Source: Candidatus Heimdallarchaeota archaeon (GTDB lineage Archaea > Asgardarchaeota > Heimdallarchaeia > Heimdallarchaeales > Kariarchaeaceae). Taken from it: a stretch of 64,000 nt of DNA. The stretch covers positions 548,473-612,472 of the forward strand of contig JASBSB010000007.1 of the NCBI GenBank assembly GCA_030149205.1. Direction: 5' to 3'. Shown piece after piece: positions 8,951 through 33,738 of the stretch (within the stretch, counting starts at the first letter, position 1; every line of letters begins with the position of its first letter). Under the pieces are notes generated by a model that did not search any database, was not told the DNA's origin, and was given only the letters and a program-made list of their open reading frames with translations. A program made the translations under genes and the position numbers.

Positions 8951-10303
8951 ATGAGTTCAAAAGAGAAGAATAACTACATCCATGTTTCGAGAGCCAAAAT
9001 TAAATTTACCTCATCCATATCCGGGATAATAGAGGGTATAAACGAGTTTCCGAAGATGTATCATTCATATAAAGGAGAGCAATATCTAGCTATTGGTTCA
9101 ACAGTTTCAATACAAGATCGAACTCATAATTTTAAGCAACTCTCAAATGAAATTTTTTCATATACCTTTCCAGCTGATTTAAACACACCAGTGTGGTTTG
9201 GTGGATTATCCTTTTATCCAAAGCAAAACGACGAAGAACATACATGGAGGGGTTTTTCAGCTCAACATTTCTTTATTCCAAAGGTCTTACTTAGAATTTC
9301 TACCACAAAATCAGAACTAATTGCATTCTCAAAAGAGTCCAAGGAGAAAGCTAAGGCAGTATTACAAACCTTTCAAAAAAAGATGATGGCTGTTCATAAA
9401 AATCAATCTGAGCCAACATTGGTTTCTGAAATCTCCGAGAGAACTGAAACAGACTTAATTAGTCTTGAACAATGGAAAAAACAAGTAAAGTTTACACTTG
9501 AGTCAATAGAGAAGAAAAAAATATCCAAAATTGTTCTGGTAAGAGGTAAAAGAATTAACATATCAAATTATGAATTTTCAATCTCTGAAACCCTGCACTC
9601 ACTAAACAAGAAATTTCCAGAGTGCATTATTTATGCCTTTCAGGTTGCCAAAAACTCAATTTTCTTTGGAGCAACTCCTGAGATACTCTTTGAAACGAGC
9701 TCAGGGTCACTTCAAACCATGGCACTAGCGGGTTCAATTAACAGAGGAAGCTCAGATCTTACTGATCAAATTCTCACCAAACAGATGTTTGCTTCTATCA
9801 AACTTTCAGAGGAACACAACATAGTAGTTAATTACCTCAAAAAAAATCTTAGTAAGCTATGTGATGAGATAGTAGTTTCTGAGAAGCCAGATGCACTAAA
9901 GCTCAACAACATACAACATCTCAGGACCAGACTCTCAGGTGAACTAAAATCTCAGAAATCAGTTTTTGACATAATTAAGGAGTTTCATCCTACTCCTGCA
10001 GTTGGGGGGATGCCTCCCAAAAAGGCTATAACTACCCTCGGTATGCTTGAAACTTTCGACAGAGGTTGGTATAGCGGAACAATGGGGATAATCTCTCCAA
10101 ACAATGATGCCTTGTTTGGTGTAAATATTCGTGGTGCATTATCCTTGAATAATGGGGTTTGGATGTATGCTGGTGCTGGAATTGTAAAAAATTCTCATGC
10201 AGAGGATGAGTGGAAAGAGGTGGAACTAAAATTTTTAGCTGTTTATAACTCACTATATTATTATAAAAAGAATGAAGGAGAGCAGAATGAAAACACCTCT
10301 TAA
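8951..10303 (+). CDS. menF: Isochorismate synthase (chorismate-binding family)
   Basis: Chorismate-binding motifs (FFGATPEILFE, ALAGSINRG, QHLRTRLSGELK, LHPTPAVGG-like FHPTPAVGGMPP, YSGTMGI); adjacent to menD. Confidence 0.88.
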   Translation: MSSKEKNNYIHVSRAKIKFTSSISGIIEGINEFPKMYHSYKGEQYLAIGSTVSIQDRTHNFKQLSNEIFSYTFPADLNTPVWFGGLSFYPKQNDEEHTWRGFSAQHFFIPKVLLRISTTKSELIAFSKESKEKAKAVLQTFQKKMMAVHKNQSEPTLVSEISERTETDLISLEQWKKQVKFTLESIEKKKISKIVLVRGKRINISNYEFSISETLHSLNKKFPECIIYAFQVAKNSIFFGATPEILFETSSGSLQTMALAGSINRGSSDLTDQILTKQMFASIKLSEEHNIVVNYLKKNLSKLCDEIVVSEKPDALKLNNIQHLRTRLSGELKSQKSVFDIIKEFHPTPAVGGMPPKKAITTLGMLETFDRGWYSGTMGIISPNNDALFGVNIRGALSLNNGVWMYAGAGIVKNSHAEDEWKEVELKFLAVYNSLYYYKKNEGEQNENTS

Positions 10304-11978
10304 TTTAACGTATGCACAGCTCATCGTTGATGAATTGATAAGGCAAGGTGTGACCAGATTCGTATGTTCACCAGGGTCAAGGTCAACCCCACTTGTATTT
10401 GCGATTTCATTAAGAAAAGAGCATATCAAATATCATATTATTATAGATGAGAGGTCTGCTGGTTTTTTTGCCTTAGGACAGGCAAAGGAGACAGCTCAAC
10501 CTGTGGCTTTGATTTGTACTTCGGGTACTGCTGTTGCAAATTATTTTCCAGCAATTGTTGAGGCTCATTACACAAATATTCCAATGATTGTTCTTTCAGC
10601 AGATCGTCCACACAGTCTTCGAGATGCTGGAGCAAATCAAACAATCGACCAAATCAAAATCTTTGGTGGTTATGTTAACCATTTTGTAGATTTACCAACT
10701 CCACAACCTTCAATCACTGATCACGAACGTAAGGTTTTGACAGGGATTGCGGCTAAGGCTTATCATGCATCCCTTTTTCCAACTAAAGGTGTTGTACACC
10801 TGAATCTTCCCTTTGTTAAACCTCTGGAACCCACAGAAGAAGAAACTCTAGAAAATCTTAAATTCGTCAAAGGTTCAAAAATCAAATTTTTTCATCCTAG
10901 GAAACTAAACGGTTTTGAGAATGGGGATGATTCATTTCAAGGAAAGGTTCTAATAATAATGGGAGCAATCATTCCTGATGATTTGGACTTGTTTGACCTT
11001 AAGGCTCTTTTAGAACAAAAAGGGGTTCCTGTGGTTGCAGATGTGTTGACCAACTTCAGATCCTTGGGTTGTTCAACTCTTATTCAATCATTTGAGGGTA
11101 TTTTAAGTAGCTCTAATTTCGTTAAGCGGTTTGATCCTGACACAATTATCCTTATTGGAAAAAATCCCAGCTCAATTTCTGTTAACAAATTTCTCTATAA
11201 AACAAAGGCTCAAAAGATACAACTGAGTACTAACTCTGATTGGAATGATGAGACCTACCAAACAACACTAAAGGTAGAATTGCCAGGCGAGCAAATCCCA
11301 GAGTTTTTGAATAACTCTATAACACAAATAGATACAGGTTATCTTTCATTACTATCCAGTTTAGACAAAAGTCTTGATGATTCTCTTCCGCAATCATTCT
11401 CAGAAATAGGTGTAGCTAATAAACTACTTCAAATGCTGGAAGATTCAACTATTTTCTTAGCTAACAGTTCTGTAATACGTAACTTTGACATTGTGTATCG
11501 TTTCTCTCCTCATAAATCACTAAGATTTCTAGGGAACCGTGGAGTGAGTGGGATTGATGGGAACATTTCTACTGCCGTTGGTGTTGCACTCTCATCGGAA
11601 AACCGAGTTTACGCAATTATGGGTGATCTAGCCTTTCTTCATGACTTAAACTCAATGTCGATTGTACAAAAGTATAAACCTAAAGTTGGGATAATTGTCT
11701 TTAACAATTCTGGTGGAGGTTTATTTAAAAGACTACCCATTTTTCAACACAAAACAGTTTTTTCTGAGTTTTATTCAACCCCCCAAAACTTTAACATTAA
11801 AGACATTTGCGCTGCTTTTTCATTAGACTATTATGAAGTAACAGCCATGGAATCCTTAAATCGTTTCAATTTCGCAGAGATGGAAACCCCCTTTTGTCTT
11901 GAAATCAAATTAATTTCAGACGCAGAGCCTGAAGCCTATTTAGAATACCTGAAGACATGTCAGAATAAAATGGCTTAA
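10287..11978 (+). CDS. menD: 2-succinyl-5-enolpyruvyl-6-hydroxy-3-cyclohexene-1-carboxylate synthase
   Basis: ThDP enzyme; SPGSRSTPLVFAIS, ICTSGTAVANYFPAIVEAHYTNIPMIVLSADRP, GNRGVSGIDGNISTAVGVAL; likely ATG at 10287 overlaps the menF end. Confidence 0.93.
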   Translation: MKTPLNLTYAQLIVDELIRQGVTRFVCSPGSRSTPLVFAISLRKEHIKYHIIIDERSAGFFALGQAKETAQPVALICTSGTAVANYFPAIVEAHYTNIPMIVLSADRPHSLRDAGANQTIDQIKIFGGYVNHFVDLPTPQPSITDHERKVLTGIAAKAYHASLFPTKGVVHLNLPFVKPLEPTEEETLENLKFVKGSKIKFFHPRKLNGFENGDDSFQGKVLIIMGAIIPDDLDLFDLKALLEQKGVPVVADVLTNFRSLGCSTLIQSFEGILSSSNFVKRFDPDTIILIGKNPSSISVNKFLYKTKAQKIQLSTNSDWNDETYQTTLKVELPGEQIPEFLNNSITQIDTGYLSLLSSLDKSLDDSLPQSFSEIGVANKLLQMLEDSTIFLANSSVIRNFDIVYRFSPHKSLRFLGNRGVSGIDGNISTAVGVALSSENRVYAIMGDLAFLHDLNSMSIVQKYKPKVGIIVFNNSGGGLFKRLPIFQHKTVFSEFYSTPQNFNIKDICAAFSLDYYEVTAMESLNRFNFAEMETPFCLEIKLISDAEPEAYLEYLKTCQNKMA

Positions 11979-24725: not shown

Positions 24726-25142
24726 ATGAACAAAAAAGTTCTTTTTATCTGTACGCATAATTCCGCCCGTTCTCAGATGGCTGAGGGATTAACCAATCAT
24801 TTCTTTCCAGATGTTCAAGCCTTTAGTGCAGGAACAGAAAAGACTCGTGTGAAACCTGAAGCAATAGAGGCACTGAAAGAAATTGATATAGATATCAGCC
24901 ACCACACCTCCAAAACGACCGAGGCCTTTCTTAATGATCAATTTGATCTGGTTGTCACTGTCTGTGATAGCGCAAAGGAATCTTGCCCTTTCTTCCCAAA
25001 TGCAAAATTGCGGGCTCATGCTGGGTTTAAAGATCCCTCTGATATTACAGATCCGAAGGAGAGACTTTTAGCATTTAAAAGAACCCGAGATGAGATTTTA
25101 GACTGGTTACATGATAACCTTATGGATTTACTCGAGGACTGA
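24726..25142 (+). CDS. arsC: Low-molecular-weight phosphatase-type arsenate reductase
   Basis: VLFICTHNSARSQMAEG P-loop; VVTVCDSAKESCPFFP; FKDPSD. Confidence 0.88.
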   Translation: MNKKVLFICTHNSARSQMAEGLTNHFFPDVQAFSAGTEKTRVKPEAIEALKEIDIDISHHTSKTTEAFLNDQFDLVVTVCDSAKESCPFFPNAKLRAHAGFKDPSDITDPKERLLAFKRTRDEILDWLHDNLMDLLED

Positions 25143-26118
25143 AAAACTGAAGAAATACATCCCACGTTAACTTACTAGTCATTAGATCATATTTTGCATC
25201 AAAATTTGGGGATGTACACCCTGGGGAAATAACTCTAACAAATTGAAATCTGATAGTATGGTTGTTTTTCTCCGCATTCAACATCATTTTATAATCATTG
25301 ATTGAATCCCCAAACATCACAAGCTGTCTGATTTCTGGATTCTGGTAAATAAGTTGGTTTAAGGCATAAGGATTAGGTTTAAGCAGGCTTTGTCCATTTT
25401 CAACACAATTTTCTATGAAGAATCGAGAATCTGGCAAGAATAAATCTTCAATCATATTACTCTCAAGAAATAAGTCTAAATCAACCTTGGGTCTTCCAGT
25501 TACCACAGCAAGCTTTACCATTGAAGAGAGCCTCCTCAAATCATTAAAGTCAACCAATAATTGTTCCTTCATGTACAAGGGGTCCGGGTTAAGGTGTTTC
25601 AGATAAGGTATGTTTCCATAAATTTTCTCAAACATCTCATTACCGTAATAAAACTGCTGGAAAATGTTTTCCAATAAATTTGTTGCCAAAATATCACCAT
25701 TGTTTTTGAGAAAGACCGGTGGATTAGCTTGAATTAGGGATAAGTAGCTCTCAGGTTTTGATCCAACTCCATTCAAAAATATCTGAAATTTCTTTACAAA
25801 GTCTCCTGTAAGATTTTGTTCTTTGAAATTCATCTTTTCATACTTTAATCTATCGAATCGACTGTTATTCCCAGATACAATAGAGATCATAAACAGAATA
25901 AACAATGATGCAACATCATAATCTGAATTGAATCCTTCAATCTCTTTCACCCTGCAATAATCATCGAGGTTAAAGAGTATATCTGGGATGTTGTTCCATC
26001 CTAAGACCTCTGTAAGATAAGTTTCAGCGGTCTTAATAGCAGCTACACCATAAGAATGCAATGTGCTGACTAAGGTCTCATCCACATCAAATACAAACAT
26101 GGTGTCAAAATCAGGCAA
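25120..26118 (-). CDS. HAD superfamily hydrolase
   Basis: FVFDVDETLVST motif I; VVTGRPK motif II; MFGDSINDYKMMLNAEKN motif IV. Confidence 0.85.
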   Translation of the reverse strand: MPDFDTMFVFDVDETLVSTLHSYGVAAIKTAETYLTEVLGWNNIPDILFNLDDYCRVKEIEGFNSDYDVASLFILFMISIVSGNNSRFDRLKYEKMNFKEQNLTGDFVKKFQIFLNGVGSKPESYLSLIQANPPVFLKNNGDILATNLLENIFQQFYYGNEMFEKIYGNIPYLKHLNPDPLYMKEQLLVDFNDLRRLSSMVKLAVVTGRPKVDLDLFLESNMIEDLFLPDSRFFIENCVENGQSLLKPNPYALNQLIYQNPEIRQLVMFGDSINDYKMMLNAEKNNHTIRFQFVRVISPGCTSPNFDAKYDLMTSKLTWDVFLQFFSPRVNP

Positions 26119-26218: not shown

Positions 26219-26227
26219 GTTTAAATC
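26219..26227 (+). promoter_or_regulatory. Candidate TATA box of the histidine operon transcript
   Basis: GTTTAAATC about 32 nt upstream of the His-rich short ORF; archaeal spacing predicts a TSS at or next to its ATG. Confidence 0.45.
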
Positions 26228-26251: not shown

Positions 26252-26353
26252 ATGAAATGTGGCATTATCAAAGCAAGAGGAAATTTGAACAGTCGAATTC
26301 AGAATCTAATTGACCTGGTAAGCCACCATCATCATATACATCATCATTTATAA
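26252..26353 (+). CDS. Candidate his operon leader peptide: MKCGIIKARGNLNSRIQNLIDLVSHHHHIHHHL
   Basis: 33-aa ORF not in the supplied track; 7 His codons in 8 positions, about 95 bp upstream of hisIE, about 25-30 nt downstream of a TATA-like element. Confidence 0.7.
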   Translation: MKCGIIKARGNLNSRIQNLIDLVSHHHHIHHHL

Positions 26354-26409
26354 TTTAACGAACTGCATAAAAGAATCAAAAATTATTTTCTATAAAACCA
26401 ATGTTTGAT

Positions 26410-26436
26410 CTTCTCTGGCTGATAATGCCACAGAAG
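26410..26436 (+). promoter_or_regulatory. Inverted repeat/hairpin directly before hisIE
   Basis: CTTCTCTGGC-TGATAAT-GCCACAGAAG: 10-bp stem with one mismatch; followed by AAGG and the ATG at 26448. Confidence 0.65.
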
Positions 26437-26447
26437 AAGGTACCAAC

Positions 26448-27500
26448 ATGATATCGTTAGTCATAGAACAGAATCTTTACGCTTCACTAGAACCTAATAT
26501 TCGAGAGGTTCTATATATCTGCTTCCCACTCACAATTGAAAAGGGGTCTGCTTCATATCCTCTTCCGGAAGATTTCAAAGTTAGATCTGAGAAAAGCCCT
26601 GAAGATTGGATAAAAGTCGGAGCAACGGAAATTTATCTCGATAATACTCAAGAGACGAACTATGGACAATGGAAAGAGATCTACAGTATCGAAGATTTGA
26701 AAAATCTCGTCAATCACATCTCAGTCCCAACAGTAGTTGATTTTCAATCTACTAATTTTGACCCTGTGCTCCTTGAACAATCAATCAAGAATCTACCATC
26801 TTTAATCCCTGTAACAATAGTGTTTGATTATAAATCGTTAGATACTCTTTTAACCCTTATATCACTGGATCTCGATCTAGGGATACGTGTAAGAAATACT
26901 CAAAGCATTACTGAATTGTTGAGGAATTATACAAACCTTCTGAAATTTAATTCTGAGAAATTGATTCCTACTGTCACCTTAGATCAAGACTCTCGCTTTC
27001 TTATGATGGCCTACTCAAGCCGTGAATCAGTAGATCTTACAATTGACACTAGGTATGCAACTTATTTCAGTCGATCCAGATCAAGACTTTGGAAAAAGGG
27101 TGAAACCTCAGGAAACTTACAACAGATCACTAAGATTAGGATGGACTGTGATAGGGATACCTTGGTCTTCTATACCACCCCTCTTGGTCCAGCTTGTCAC
27201 AGAGGCACATACAGTTGCATTGGAGGGAAGCAGTTAAGATATAAGGATTTCTTTACAAGAGTCCAAAAGAGAATTATAAACCCAGATCCCAATTCTTATA
27301 CTCAGAGGTTGATCAAAGATCCAAAACTTCTTTCAGACAAGATAGCAGAAGAGAGTAACGAAGTAATAAATTACACAGACAAAATGAACTTAGTTTGGGA
27401 GATTGCTGACCTCACATATTTTGTATCTGTACTTATGATCAGGGAAGGTATACGGGCAAAAAACGTTTTACGTGAATTGAAATCTAGGGAGAGAAATTAG
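26448..27500 (+). CDS. hisIE: Bifunctional phosphoribosyl-AMP cyclohydrolase / phosphoribosyl-ATP pyrophosphatase with about 185-aa N-terminal extension
   Basis: YFSRSRSRLWKKGETSGN, DCDRDTL, GPACHRGTYSC (HisI); SYTQRLIKDPKLLSDKIAEESNEVI..WEIADLTYF (HisE). Confidence 0.92.
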   Translation: MISLVIEQNLYASLEPNIREVLYICFPLTIEKGSASYPLPEDFKVRSEKSPEDWIKVGATEIYLDNTQETNYGQWKEIYSIEDLKNLVNHISVPTVVDFQSTNFDPVLLEQSIKNLPSLIPVTIVFDYKSLDTLLTLISLDLDLGIRVRNTQSITELLRNYTNLLKFNSEKLIPTVTLDQDSRFLMMAYSSRESVDLTIDTRYATYFSRSRSRLWKKGETSGNLQQITKIRMDCDRDTLVFYTTPLGPACHRGTYSCIGGKQLRYKDFFTRVQKRIINPDPNSYTQRLIKDPKLLSDKIAEESNEVINYTDKMNLVWEIADLTYFVSVLMIREGIRAKNVLRELKSRERN

Positions 27501-27502
27501 CT

Positions 27503-28495
27503 ATGAATGGTAAGACAAGTTCAACAATTAAAATTGGCATTCCATCTAAAGGGAGAATGGGAGAAGAAACCATTGAGTTCCTCAAAAAATGTGGTTTGGA
27601 AGTAAAGAGAACAAGACGTAACTATTTTGCTTCTATTCCAGCCTATCCTGACATCAAGGTGGTTTTACAAAGGCAAGAAGACATTGTAAAAGGGGTCACC
27701 TCAGGTCTGCTTGAGATGGGTATCATCGGATTTGATTTATATACTGAAATTTTGAATAGTGAGGAGAAGAGACAAACAATAGTATTGTTTGACGACCTTG
27801 AGTTTGGAAAATGTGACTTAGCAATCGCAGTTCCTGAGGAATGGGAAATTTCTGATATTACAGAATTTGATCGGTCAAAGGGGTATAGAGTTGCAACAAA
27901 ATTCACTAACACAACCCAGGAATTTTTGGATACGCAAAATATCGCTTTTCAATTTGTTGAAGGTGCAGGAACACTCGAAATCTCACCAGCTTTGGGAAAT
28001 GCAGATTTCATTGTTGATTTGGTATCAACGGGCCAAACGCTCAAAGATAACAGGTTGAAACAGATTAACAACGGAAAGATACTCAGTTCACAAGCGATAT
28101 TTGTTGGAAACAGGACAATCCTGAAATCAACCCCTGAGGCTTTACACATAGCTAGCGATTTAATAGAAATATTTGCCGCAACATTAAGAGCAGAAAAATT
28201 TGTATCTGTATTTGTTAATATGAGGGGAAATAACAGGCAGGAGATAATTGATCAATTTTTTACTGTGGATGGATTAGAGGGTTTACAAGGTCCTACAGTG
28301 TCAGATGTATACACAAAGGACAACGGGGACTGGTTTGCGGTTCATCTTGTGGTGGCAAAGAGAAACTTACTCACAGCAATAAAAAACATCAGACAACTCG
28401 GAGGTTCTGGGGTTGTTGTTTCGGAGACTAATTATATCTTTGAGGAGGAACCAAAGCAGTACACTCTCCTTAAAGAACAGCTTAGGGGTGAATAA
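27503..28495 (+). CDS. hisG: ATP phosphoribosyltransferase, long form
   Basis: IGIPSKGRMGEETIEFLKKCGL; VEGAGTLEISPALGNADFIVDLVSTGQTLKDN; C-terminal regulatory domain. Confidence 0.93.
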   Translation: MNGKTSSTIKIGIPSKGRMGEETIEFLKKCGLEVKRTRRNYFASIPAYPDIKVVLQRQEDIVKGVTSGLLEMGIIGFDLYTEILNSEEKRQTIVLFDDLEFGKCDLAIAVPEEWEISDITEFDRSKGYRVATKFTNTTQEFLDTQNIAFQFVEGAGTLEISPALGNADFIVDLVSTGQTLKDNRLKQINNGKILSSQAIFVGNRTILKSTPEALHIASDLIEIFAATLRAEKFVSVFVNMRGNNRQEIIDQFFTVDGLEGLQGPTVSDVYTKDNGDWFAVHLVVAKRNLLTAIKNIRQLGGSGVVVSETNYIFEEEPKQYTLLKEQLRGE

Positions 28496-29836
28496 ATGAA
28501 GATACTAAACGTTGATGAGGCTCGTAAGAGCATATTACTAAGAAGGCCTCTGATTGATTATGAATTGCCAGACAGACTAAAAGATGCGATTAAATCAATC
28601 TTTGGAAAAGATCTGGATGCAAGGGGTGTTGTGCTTCAAATAATTGATGATGTTATAAATGATGGAGATAAGGCACTAAAAGACCTAACCAACAGAATTG
28701 ATGGTGTTCAGATGTCGAATTTCAAAGTTCAGAGTGATGAATTTGAGAATGCTGAGTTTAACACAGAAAATGACATTTTAGTCGCATTAAAAGAATCAAT
28801 AACCCGAGTATATAGATTTCATCAGCAACAACCTGTTAACTCATGGGTTACTCAGGAGTTAGGTGGAACTCTTGGTCAACTTATACGACCAATTGAAAGA
28901 ATTGGCTGTTATGTCCCAGGTGGCTCAGCTCCTCTTCCCTCAACAGTCATAATGAGTATAATTCCTGCAATTGTTGCGGGGGTTAAACAAATTGTTATCA
29001 CAACTCCTCCTCAAAAATCTGGAGAAGTTTCCACAGTAATTCTTACAGCAGTGCAATTAATAAGAGAACAATTCCCTGATATAGAACTATCTTTATACAA
29101 GGTCGGTGGTGCTCAAGCAATCGCTGCTATGGCGTTTGGAACACAAACAATCCCCAAGGTCGATAAAATAGTAGGGCCCGGTAATATTTTTGTCTCGATA
29201 GCAAAAAAAGAGGTATTTGGGGTTGTTGGAATTGATGGAATTGCTGGACCAACAGAGGCCATGATTCTTGCAGATGAATCTGTAAATGCTGATCTGATAG
29301 CTGCTGATCTTCTTGCACAGGCAGAACATGATCCGATGGCAGTACCCATTCTGGTTACGACCAGCCTAGACTTTGCTTTACTGGTCAACAAATGTGTTGA
29401 GAAGCAAGTTGCAGACCTTTCCAGATCAGAGATAATCAAATCATCTATAAACAACAGGGGTGGAATCGTGTTAGTTGACAGCATTGAACAAGGAATTGTT
29501 ATAGTCAACGAATTTGCACCAGAACATCTTTCACTTGCAGTGAAAGGTTATTGGGACATTATTCCCAAGATTCATAATGCTGGAGGTATATTTCTTGGTG
29601 AGCTTTCTTGTGAGGTTCTAGGTGATTACATCGCGGGACCAAGCCATGTGATGCCCACAGGTGGTTCTGCTAAATATGCCTCACCTTTGAATATATTAGA
29701 CTTTGTGAAGATCGTCAGTCTCGTTGGACTCGATAAGTCAACAGTCCAAAAAATATCTACGCAAGCAGAAACAATAGCCCAATCCGAAAAGCTGACTGCA
29801 CACGCAGCAGCAGCTAAACTTAGGAGTCAGATATAA
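28496..29836 (+). CDS. hisD: Histidinol dehydrogenase
   Basis: RPIERIGCYVPGGSAPLPSTVIM; KVDKIVGPGNIFV; IDGIAGPTEAMILAD; GDYIAGPSHVMPTGGSAKYASPL. Confidence 0.95.
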   Translation: MKILNVDEARKSILLRRPLIDYELPDRLKDAIKSIFGKDLDARGVVLQIIDDVINDGDKALKDLTNRIDGVQMSNFKVQSDEFENAEFNTENDILVALKESITRVYRFHQQQPVNSWVTQELGGTLGQLIRPIERIGCYVPGGSAPLPSTVIMSIIPAIVAGVKQIVITTPPQKSGEVSTVILTAVQLIREQFPDIELSLYKVGGAQAIAAMAFGTQTIPKVDKIVGPGNIFVSIAKKEVFGVVGIDGIAGPTEAMILADESVNADLIAADLLAQAEHDPMAVPILVTTSLDFALLVNKCVEKQVADLSRSEIIKSSINNRGGIVLVDSIEQGIVIVNEFAPEHLSLAVKGYWDIIPKIHNAGGIFLGELSCEVLGDYIAGPSHVMPTGGSAKYASPLNILDFVKIVSLVGLDKSTVQKISTQAETIAQSEKLTAHAAAAKLRSQI

Positions 29837-30942
29837 TGATCCCTAGAATTGCAGTACAGTCAATGGAAGCTTATTCTCCATTAAAAAGTCTAAAAGAAAT
29901 TTCAGAAGAGATAAAGCTCGATGTCAATGAAATCGTCAAACTCAATGGGAACGAGAACCCATTTCCATTATCATTTCAAATGACTGATACCATAAACTTA
30001 GAAGTATATCCAGACCCAGAGTCGAAGGTTCTCACTCAAAAGATTGCAAATTTTGTTGGGTTAGCACCAGATCAGGTCTTTGTTGGTGCTGGTGCGGATG
30101 AAATAATTGATCTGATACAACGGGCATTTCTCAATCCAGGTGATAGAGTAATCAGCTTAGAACCAACATTCAGCATGTACGAGTTTTTCTGTAATCTGAA
30201 CTCGGGAAATTTTATATCAATCCCCATGAGGAAGGTGGTTAATCTCAACCTATCAGAATATCAAATCCCCACAGACAAGGTGCTGAAGGAGGCAGATAAT
30301 GCAAAGATGATTTTTCTTAGCTCACCTAATAATCCAGATGGGAAGCTGGTCAACAATAATCTTATCTTAGAATTACTACGGAAAGGGGTGCTCGTTGTAC
30401 TGGATGAGGCCTATATTGAATTTTCACATCAATCACCAACAATAAACTTAGTAAATGAGTATTCAAATCTGATTGTCTTAAGAACCTTCAGCAAAGCGTT
30501 TGGACTGGCTGGCATGAGAATTGGGTATGCACTTCTAAACCCAGAGTTAAAGTTCATCCTCCAGAAGATCAAGCAACCTTATAATGTTACAACATTGTCT
30601 CAAAATCTCGCAATAAATGCATTGGAAAGAATTAAGGAGATACAAGAGAATGTAGAAGTTATAAAAGAGATCAGAGATGAATACTTTCAAAAATTTTCTG
30701 AGCTGACTATTCAAACCGACCAATTGAAAATTCACAGATCAGATGCAAATTTCATTCTAATGGACTTTACTACTCCAAAAATTGCAAGTGAGATTTTCCA
30801 GTATCTGAAGCAAGAGGGAGTTCTCGTAAGATATTACAATAATGAAATACTTAACAGCTCAATACGTGTATCAATCGGGAGAAGGGAACAGATGGAGAAG
30901 GTTTATTCTCTTCTCTCAAAAAAACTAGCGGTGATAAAATGA
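29836..30942 (+). CDS. hisC: Histidinol-phosphate aminotransferase
   Basis: LNGNENPF; VFVGAGADEIIDLI; FLSSPNNPDG; TFSKAFGLAGMRIGY. Confidence 0.93.
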   Translation: MIPRIAVQSMEAYSPLKSLKEISEEIKLDVNEIVKLNGNENPFPLSFQMTDTINLEVYPDPESKVLTQKIANFVGLAPDQVFVGAGADEIIDLIQRAFLNPGDRVISLEPTFSMYEFFCNLNSGNFISIPMRKVVNLNLSEYQIPTDKVLKEADNAKMIFLSSPNNPDGKLVNNNLILELLRKGVLVVLDEAYIEFSHQSPTINLVNEYSNLIVLRTFSKAFGLAGMRIGYALLNPELKFILQKIKQPYNVTTLSQNLAINALERIKEIQENVEVIKEIRDEYFQKFSELTIQTDQLKIHRSDANFILMDFTTPKIASEIFQYLKQEGVLVRYYNNEILNSSIRVSIGRREQMEKVYSLLSKKLAVIK

Positions 30943-31535
30943 CAAGACAAGGAGAAATCAGTCGAAAGACAAAGGAAACAGAAATCAAAGTTGTAATAAA
31001 CTTGGATGGAGAGGGAAACACGAACATATCAACAGGTATTGGGTTCTTGAACCACATGCTCACAGCATTCGCTGTTCATGGAAAATTTAACCTAGAGGTA
31101 AAAGCAATTGGGGATCTAGATATTGACACACATCACACAGTGGAAGATATAGCCATCTGTCTGGGGCTAGCAATACAACAAGCAATAGGAGAAAAAAGAG
31201 GGATTGAACGAATGGCAGATTCCTTTGTTCCAATGGATGAATCTCTGGTTCGTGTAGTCTTGGATCTATCAGGAAGACCATATTTTGTTAGTGACTTCAA
31301 ATGGGATTCTCCCTTAATTGGAAGTATCAGCTCTCAGATCATTAAAACCAGTGAGATTGAACATTTTCTAGAAACCCTTGCCTTCAGATCACTTACCACA
31401 CTTCACATAAAGGTGTTCTATGGGAGAGATGACCATCACATGTCTGAAGCTGTTTTCAAGGCACTTGGGAGGGCATTGTATAAAGCAACTAGGATTGTTG
31501 GCACTACTGTTCCCTCATCAAAGGGAATACTGTAA
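30939..31535 (+). CDS. hisB: Imidazoleglycerol-phosphate dehydratase (monofunctional)
   Basis: GIGFLNHMLTAFAVHGKF; DTHHTVEDIAICLG; NDHHMSEAVFKALGRAL-like DDHHMSEAVFKALGRAL. Confidence 0.95.
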   Translation: MTRQGEISRKTKETEIKVVINLDGEGNTNISTGIGFLNHMLTAFAVHGKFNLEVKAIGDLDIDTHHTVEDIAICLGLAIQQAIGEKRGIERMADSFVPMDESLVRVVLDLSGRPYFVSDFKWDSPLIGSISSQIIKTSEIEHFLETLAFRSLTTLHIKVFYGRDDHHMSEAVFKALGRALYKATRIVGTTVPSSKGIL

Positions 31536-31546
31536 GAGGATAAAAG

Positions 31547-32149
31547 ATGATAGCAATAGTTAATACTGGCTCTGGAAATCTAAGATCAGTTCAAAAAGCA
31601 CTTGAATTATTTTATCCAGAGATTAAGATAATTGATACCCCAAAAAGCATCAGTTCAGCAGATGGGATGGTCTTGCCTGGGGTAGGTTCCTTTGGTGATG
31701 CAGTTGATACATTAAATGAAATAGATCTTTTTGAGGAAGTTAAGGAGTTGGGAAAATCCATACCGGTACTTGGAATTTGTCTGGGAATGCAGATTCTTTT
31801 TGAGCGATCTGAAGAGTCACCAGATGCTACAGGTTTAGGATTGTTAAGAGGAGAGGTTTTAAAACTTCATCCTCTCAATGATACTAATGTCCCACATACT
31901 GGTTGGAATCGTTTAATTCCACAGCAAAAGGAACAGAAGATTGAGAACCTTAAGTACGCCTATTTCAATCACTCATATTACTGCCACCCTGAGGATGAAA
32001 ATGTTATTGATTATTCTGTTATCCATGGGGGAAAATATCCCGCGATTATCCAGAAGAGAAATATCTTAGCAACACAGTTTCATCCAGAAAAGAGTAGAGA
32101 GAGTGGTGAACAGGTGTTGAAGTATTTTGTGAGGTCGGTTAGACAGTGA
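31547..32149 (+). CDS. hisH: Imidazole glycerol phosphate synthase glutaminase subunit
   Basis: NTGSGNLRSVQKAL; GICLGMQILFERSEE; FHPEKS. Confidence 0.94.
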   Translation: MIAIVNTGSGNLRSVQKALELFYPEIKIIDTPKSISSADGMVLPGVGSFGDAVDTLNEIDLFEEVKELGKSIPVLGICLGMQILFERSEESPDATGLGLLRGEVLKLHPLNDTNVPHTGWNRLIPQQKEQKIENLKYAYFNHSYYCHPEDENVIDYSVIHGGKYPAIIQKRNILATQFHPEKSRESGEQVLKYFVRSVRQ

Positions 32150-33738
32150 AGAAAATACTTGTAGCAATAGATCTCATGAACGGAGAGGTAGTCAGACTTA
32201 GCCAAGGTGAATTTTCAAATAAGACAGTCTATTCAAAGACGCCTCTAGATGTAATGAAGAAGTTTGTCTCAGAAGGGGTCGAATGGTTTCATATTGTAAA
32301 CCTTGATGGAACACAAGCAGAACCGAAAATACAACCCAATAATGGAACCAATAATGGAACCAAAACAGGAACTAATAATGAGACTGACGATGACAGTAGG
32401 TCTGCCAATTTAACCGTCATAAGACAACTGATCAAGTATGGAAAATCAGTTGGGGTCAGTATTCAAATTGGTGGAGGGGTAAGAAATTATACCCAGGTCA
32501 AAAAATACCTTGAAATTGGTGTTGACAGGGTTGTGATTGGAACCTTGGTGTTCAGTGATCCAACTGAATTTAAAAAAATATTATCCGCGTATTCGACTCA
32601 AGTAGTCGTTGCTCTTGATGTCTTGGATGGAATTGTAAGGGTTCATGGTTGGACTAAATCAACAGAGACAAGCATTGAAACTGCAATCTCTGACCTTCTT
32701 TCTCTTGGTGTATCCAACTTTCTTGTGACAGACATCAAGAAGGATGGAATGCTGTCAGGAATTAATACTGAACTTTACAGAAAAATTCAATCCCTTTTAG
32801 ACAGTTCGGAGAGTAAAAAATCAGGGAATCACATTGAGATTATTGCTTCTGGGGGTGTAAATTCTCTTGACTCAATTAAATCTGCATTAGAGGTCTGTGG
32901 ATCTGTTGTCGTAGGTAGGAGTCTATATGAGGGAACAATTAACCAAGCTCAACTTGGAAACATAATTTTGGCGTATAACAAAAGCTATCTGACAAAACGA
33001 ATCATTCCATGTCTTGATGTAAAAAATGGGAAGGTTGTCAAGGGGGTCAACTTTCTCAATCTCAAAGATATAGGTGATCCAGTCGAGATGGCAATGTACT
33101 ACAATGAAAAAGGGGCTGATGAGCTTGTGTTTTTAGATATTACTGCCACAGTTGAAGGTCGAAAAGCAACACTTTCCAAGATACGTGAGGTTGCAGAGAC
33201 TGTATTCATCCCATTCACAGTTGGTGGAGGGGTCAAGACACTTGCCGATATTCAAGATATCATTAATGCAGGAGCAGAGAAGGTCGCCATTAATTCGGGA
33301 GCGATAAGCAACCCAGAAGTTCTGACTCAGGGTGCACATAAATTTGGCTCTCAATGCATAGTCTTAGCTGTCGATGTTAAACAAAAAGGTGACACTTGGG
33401 AGGTTTACTCTCAGGCAGGAACACAACCAACAGGGCTTGATGCATTTAGATGGATTGAGAAAGCCATATCTAAGGGAGCAGGTGAAATTCTTGTCACAAG
33501 TATAGACAGAGACGGAACCAAACAGGGTTTCGATTTACAGCTGTTGTCAGAGCTACGAGCAAGATTCAAGGTACCCATTATTGCTTCTGGTGGTGCTGGT
33601 CAAGTAGAGCATTTTGCAGAGATATTTGACATTGGGATTGATGCAGGATTGGCTGCATCCATCTTTCATGAGAGAGAGATTGAGATTCATACCCTGAAAA
33701 GGCTATTGAAAAGTCGAAATGTTAGAGTAAGAATCTGA
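32146..33738 (+). CDS. hisAF: HisA-HisF fusion protein: ProFAR isomerase (about residues 1-280) + IGP synthase cyclase (about 282-530)
   Basis: Uninterrupted 530-aa [32 protein letters not shown].. then [62 protein letters not shown] start. Confidence 0.95.

Follow-up and report, generated by a model that had tools for sequence, protein, structure and literature searches.

Introduction

Can an archaeal ribosome gauge histidine supply by reading a run of His codons placed ahead of the histidine biosynthesis genes? The question is raised by a stretch of 64,000 nucleotides (nt), hereafter the window, of contig JASBSB010000007.1 from a Heimdallarchaeia-type Asgard genome, in which an open reading frame (ORF) of 33 codons, its last codons including a cluster of His codons, lies directly ahead of a his operon of the order hisIE-G-D-C-B-H-AF. 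Leader-peptide attenuation is a classic, textbook form of bacterial control, which relies on a ribosome translating the message as the surrounding RNA refolds. Among known prokaryotes, none are more closely related to eukaryotes than the Asgard archaea. If the control proposed here is true, Asgard ribosomes would sense the supply of amino acids on the messenger RNA itself.

Translational attenuation of ermC follows the same logic as the bacterial attenuators that sequester a ribosome-binding site, in which a stall in the leader frees a region that opens the hairpin over that site. In some bacterial amino-acid operons such a hairpin replaces the terminator, and His leaders have been described for Proteobacteria and Firmicutes, some of them acting on the ribosome-binding site (PMC9413887). 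Regarding archaea, a tool paper mentions control by upstream ORFs in passing (PMC10219788), and the open-access literature yielded no account of attenuation by an amino-acid leader peptide, subscription journals and preprints lying outside the search; the novelty of an archaeal case is hence provisional.

A single His run of its kind, at the start of the his operon

The original prediction had pointed to a 33-codon ORF with seven His codons in eight, about 95 base pairs (bp) before hisIE. Both points were recovered, the ORF being present with an identical translation and its stop codon lying 94 nt from the hisIE start (Table 1). The His codons read CAC CAT CAT CAT ATA CAT CAT CAT, followed by TTA TAA, and a candidate promoter element, the TATA-like box GTTTAAATC on which the prediction of a nearly leaderless ORF was based, is found 24 nt before the leader ATG. 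The pattern CAYx4-NNN-CAYx2 occurs only twice in the whole 3.3-megabase (Mb) genome, once as this run and once as an other-frame reading over a proline-repeat coding region; no comparable His run in frame turned up elsewhere in the genome. When the 707 nt up to hisIE were shuffled with dinucleotides preserved, a short ORF with seven His in nine codons arose in 0 of 400 shuffles (p = 0.0025, the smallest value attainable with this number), and the same test found no amino acid besides His enriched in the window leader region.

His leaders in other Asgard archaea

A related-locus search with the window HisG as single query returned no matches; relatives were obtained by a HisG search over 232 genomes of the phylum, from which the his operons were then retrieved. 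Ten further Asgard loci carry, directly upstream of the first his gene, a short ORF with a terminal His cluster, located at the stop codon or one to two codons ahead of it. The gene behind the leader is hisIE in seven Loki genomes and hisC in three genomes, including the complete chromosome of Candidatus Lokiarchaeum ossiferum. The seven Loki operons share the order hisIE-G-D of the window, which on contigs of sufficient length extends to C-B-H-A-F with hisA abutting hisF, and their leader-to-hisIE spacer is nearly constant (83-87 nt). In all 11 leader loci, the window included, His is enriched (p 0.0025-0.005 in the shuffle test), and no other residue is consistently so. The expectation that the His run would be conserved while other codons drift was borne out across genera, where the leader bodies drift and the C-terminal His cluster beside the stop is kept. 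We judge it highly probable that Asgard archaea have a conserved His leader peptide specific to this operon.

A his operon without a His leader was found in a member of the same family (G005), and none of the six Loki loci of a sister group (L132, L134, L135, L137, L138, L140) has such a leader. Of the 29 loci read from a phylum-wide search for the CAYx4-NNN-CAYx2 pattern, nearly all are long His-rich frames or other-frame readings; among these 29, L. ossiferum gave the only match at a his operon besides the window. One match in G008 (MKRFQSTYHNHHHHKHHPKN) was dropped as a His leader, being antisense within another gene. The frame of one hisC leader (L141) involves a one-base difference upstream relative to its counterpart in L139.

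A computed RNA switch over the hisIE ribosome-binding site

Leader codons 3-7 (region 1, TGTGGCATTATCA) and a segment just ahead of the hisIE Shine-Dalgarno sequence, within region 4, form a perfect 13-nt inverted repeat, and no repeat of that length arose in 1000 shuffles of the 196-nt leader. Folding predicts three mutually exclusive helices in the leader RNA, one of which a ribosome sitting on the His codons would prevent. Region 1 can pair with positions 26316-26326 in region 2, the hairpin joining the leader start codon to the following His codons (1:2, -21.0 kcal/mol); the 3' segment can pair with region 3, the hisIE Shine-Dalgarno and start codon included (3:4, -14.9 kcal/mol); and the direct duplex between regions 1 and 4 scores -20.8 (1:4).

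The switch was computed by a partition-function scan in which the ribosome footprint, in three sizes, was forced to remain unpaired. In the free RNA the pairing probabilities (P) are 0.77 for 1:2, 0.57 for 3:4 and 0.09 for 1:4; with the ribosomal A site on codons 16-30, P(1:2) falls to about 0, P(3:4) to 0 and P(1:4) rises to 0.9-0.95. Meanwhile, the computed unpaired probability of the Shine-Dalgarno rises from 0.24 to 0.54, a gain equalled in 16 of 600 shuffles. All three footprint sizes agree through codon 30, the outcome at codons 31-32 depending on the size chosen.

In this scheme, when histidine-charged transfer RNA (His-tRNA) is ample, the ribosome would read to the stop codon and depart, after which region 1 would refold onto region 2 and leave region 4 free for region 3. 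The resulting 3:4 hairpin would bury the hisIE Shine-Dalgarno and start codon, keeping expression low. When His-tRNA is scarce, the ribosome would wait on the His codons and mask region 2, so that region 1 would pair with its exact complement in region 4; this pairing would block the 3:4 hairpin, leave the Shine-Dalgarno more exposed and raise expression. Leader translation, ribosome stalling and the effect on expression are steps that we infer.

Relation to hisL and to bacterial attenuators

The likeness to the enterobacterial hisL attenuator that had been proposed holds in part. As in hisL, the his operon is directly preceded by a short ORF whose final part holds tandem His codons, and computation adds alternative, mutually exclusive RNA helices keyed to these codons. 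However, the host is archaeal, the leader is about twice as long, and the helices are predicted to control the hisIE Shine-Dalgarno. No intrinsic terminator lies before the first gene, the 94-nt spacer containing neither a T-run of at least five nor a hairpin followed by a T-run, and no Rfam His-leader family matches the window leader even at E = 10. The RNA anatomy instead suggests that control is exerted at the ribosome-binding site of hisIE. In this respect the locus would resemble the bacterial attenuators that sequester ribosome-binding sites, but it is archaeal and, in the arrangement proposed here from folding, the early leader codons (region 1) pair directly with region 4 instead of forming the usual 2:3 helix. 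The broader claim that a His-codon leader peptide regulates an archaeal his operon is strongly supported by the comparison of relatives, the likeness to hisL being functional only.

Weighing the explanations

That the leader senses histidine through ribosome stalling is the natural reading and, to our mind, a very likely one. To the more specific mechanism, a switch between 1:2/3:4 and 1:4 that controls hisIE translation in this genome, we give a probability of 0.62; this value, like our grades for the conserved leader and for stalling, is a judgement and not a calculation. We favour this reading because the unique genomic His run is placed exactly at the his operon, because ten other Asgard loci have ORFs with a C-terminal His cluster before the first his gene, because His and no other residue is consistently enriched in all 11 loci, because the 13-nt inverted repeat is joined by the shifts seen in the ribosome-position scan, and because the Leu-rich leaders of leuA and the Ile-rich one of cimA (see below) match the product of their pathways.

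Several observations weigh against it. Relatives with a His-rich ORF upstream of his genes had been anticipated, and the ten Asgard loci bear this out, but not at the genus level: the two closest genomes compared (G001 and G002, of the same genus) have his operons in a different order and without a His leader. When the ribosome stands on the stop codon, 1:4 is still favoured (P 0.66-0.73), an intermediate state which implies that closure depends on ribosome release. The hisIE start codon is about 22-29% unpaired in every state, and a clearly closed form is reached by the released RNA alone. Were another ribosome to queue up behind the one that has stalled, it would mask region 1 and thereby disrupt 1:4. 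Finally, no consistent opening of the Shine-Dalgarno by a ribosome on the His codons was found in the seven Loki hisIE leaders, so that either this downstream step is not conserved or the folding model misses it. The peptide sensor may be common to the lineages and the step that follows may differ between them.

One alternative is transcriptional attenuation, in which the position of the ribosome would decide whether RNA polymerase terminates before the first his gene, at a U-tract or through FttA/aCPSF1 acting on uncoupled RNA. Both poly(U) and aCPSF1/FttA serve termination in archaea (PMC8116511), classical terminators occupy this place in the related operons of Chloroflexota, and in L. ossiferum a 9-bp hairpin followed by UGA and eight U lies between the leader and hisC (P about 0.98). 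This hairpin nevertheless does not respond to ribosome position at equilibrium, and a candidate antiterminator (2:3), whose strands look complementary on inspection (-8.9 kcal/mol), was rejected as it is not populated at equilibrium. As the window spacer lacks any T-run of this kind and none of the seven Loki hisIE leaders has a strong terminator (hairpin and U-run), we regard this mechanism as unlikely here, though the most serious of the alternatives. Translational coupling would have termination at the leader stop, near the spacer hairpins, feed or restrict reinitiation at hisIE, with the His codons only slowing passage. It would suit the Loki leaders, with their nearly constant spacing and conserved spacer hairpins. 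Indeed, these leaders are strongly folded (z = -4.0 for L127) and share helices with paired changes: of 43 pairs, 8 differ at both partners in one or more of the six sequences compared. These helices include a hairpin starting from the leader stop codon and another just ahead of the Shine-Dalgarno. A spacer of more than 80 nt is however long for reinitiation, which alone would also leave unexplained why the enriched residue is that of the pathway product, His here and Leu or Ile elsewhere; we consider this account improbable.

His-rich peptides often bind metals, and an ORF in frame with a normal start could encode a functional micropeptide that stands beside the his operon by happenstance; yet only the C-terminal His cluster, and not the body, is conserved across genera, the site is the very start of the his operon, and other residues appear at other operons, which makes this very unlikely. 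Least credible of all is a chance ORF: short ORFs are common and same-genus relatives lack the leader, but the shuffle p value at its floor, the 11 loci, the uniqueness in the genome and the inverted repeat speak against it.

Chloroflexota counterparts

Outside the Asgard archaea, nearly all of the closest HisG sequences retrieved belong to Chloroflexota. A His-rich leader ORF precedes hisG at many of these loci, and many show the order G-D-C-B-H-A-F-IE. In all ten such leaders examined, which served as a positive control for the terminator search, a hairpin of -16 to -20 kcal/mol and a U-run precede hisG. The Asgard hisIE leaders have no terminator of this type; they also differ in preceding hisIE (or, in other Asgard genomes, hisC) instead of hisG, and the peptides are unrelated. 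No description of the Chloroflexota His leaders was found in the open-access papers searched. In the HisG tree, which is weakly rooted, a single clade unites the Asgard and Chloroflexota sequences and excludes the other type of Asgard HisG; because of this weak root position and the long branch of the window sequence, the tree gives no direction of transfer.

Candidate leaders for other amino acids

Five Loki genomes, L. ossiferum included, have a Leu-rich ORF before the 2-isopropylmalate synthase gene leuA (p 0.0025-0.0075), and an Ile-rich leader, ...IITIISLIILIIIC, precedes the citramalate synthase gene cimA of L. ossiferum (L229; p 0.0025). The Leu run of the leuA leaders adjoins the stop codon, and in some of them a hairpin begins near that stop; in the cimA leader, the Ile codons can pair with GATAATAATC, followed by TCGTTTTT. 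A Trp leader before trpE in G118 (MIMKKWKQKWWNLFPI) was rejected (p 0.03), as it lies within the apparent end of the upstream gene, and no convincing leaders were found at the acetolactate synthase (ilvB)-type and homoserine dehydrogenase loci examined. On balance we lean towards a general set of leader-peptide attenuators in Asgard archaea (His/his, Leu/leuA, Ile/cimA), fitted to archaeal ribosomes and RNA polymerase and mostly devoid of bacterial-type terminators, of which the his version may have travelled with its operon between Chloroflexota and Asgard archaea. Direct testing is possible, L. ossiferum being in culture and its complete genome holding candidate His, Leu and Ile leaders.

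Table 1. Features of the window and leader loci of other genomes (peptides are given up to the stop codon).
Feature	Position or locus	Strand	Details
TATA-like box, candidate promoter of the leader/his transcript	26219-26227	+	consensus resemblance
Leader ORF, proposed hisL-like leader, MKCGIIKARGNLNSRIQNLIDLVSHHHHIHHHL	26252-26353	+	ATG start, 33 codons and TAA
RNA region 1	26258-26270	+	pairs with region 2 or region 4
RNA region 2	26316-26332	+	directly ahead of and over the first His codons; partner of region 1 and the leader start codon
Proposed regulatory His codon run	26324-26347	+	7 His in 8 codons
RNA region 3	26401-26419	+	5' arm of hairpin over hisIE Shine-Dalgarno and start codon
RNA region 4	26420-26449	+	loop and 3' arm of that hairpin; first 13 nt (26420-26432) exact complement of region 1
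hisIE Shine-Dalgarno-like GAAGGT	26436-26441	+	sequence; accessibility computed
hisIE, first gene	26448-27500	+	PRA-CH and PRA-PH domains; Pfam PF01502/PF01503
hisG	27503-28495	+	Pfam PF01634
hisD	28496-29836	+	Pfam PF00815
hisC	29836-30942	+	ORF; tblastn synteny
hisB (imidazoleglycerol-phosphate dehydratase)	30939-31535	+	ORF; synteny
hisH	31547-32149	+	ORF; synteny
hisA-hisF fusion	32146-33738	+	PF00977, three stretches
Loki hisIE leader, MIFLKTKGVNLLSLVFVDGSNSFNVIRSEHHHLHYK	L125
Loki hisIE leader, ...SMVHHWLHH	L128
Loki hisIE leader, ...SYLHHWLHHE	L126
Loki hisIE leader, ...SHFHHHQHHE	L136
hisC leader, ...SEHHHHMHHHC	L190:2377-2475		L. ossiferum chromosome CP104013.1; GTG start
hisC leader, ...NPHHHKQHS	L139 and L141
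Chloroflexota (Anaerolineae) His leaders	L155, L158, L177, L182, L185, L186, L192, L197, L199, L203		hairpin/U-run before hisG
Leu-rich leaders upstream of leuA	L210, L211, L212, L213, L214
Leu-rich leader, ...FYPFLLLLLNLLLLLL	L212
Leu-rich leader, ...LHLQLLVLLLLL	L210		L. ossiferum

Neighbouring genes

At its N-terminus the window hisIE is extended by about 160 residues (26448-26950) that match no Pfam family; in the Loki homologues the N-terminal region is another one, about 110 residues long, and in other Asgard operons hisA occupies the place of this extension. A divergent gene for a HAD-family hydrolase (25120-26118, minus strand) adjoins the his leader. Since a homologue lies between hisC and hisB inside the his operon of G045 (L012:2253-3287), this hydrolase may be a histidinol-phosphate phosphatase. 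Farther away, the adjoining chorismate-binding (PF00425) and TPP-enzyme (PF02776) genes at 9467-10658 are probably the menaquinone genes menF and menD rather than trpE and ilvB.
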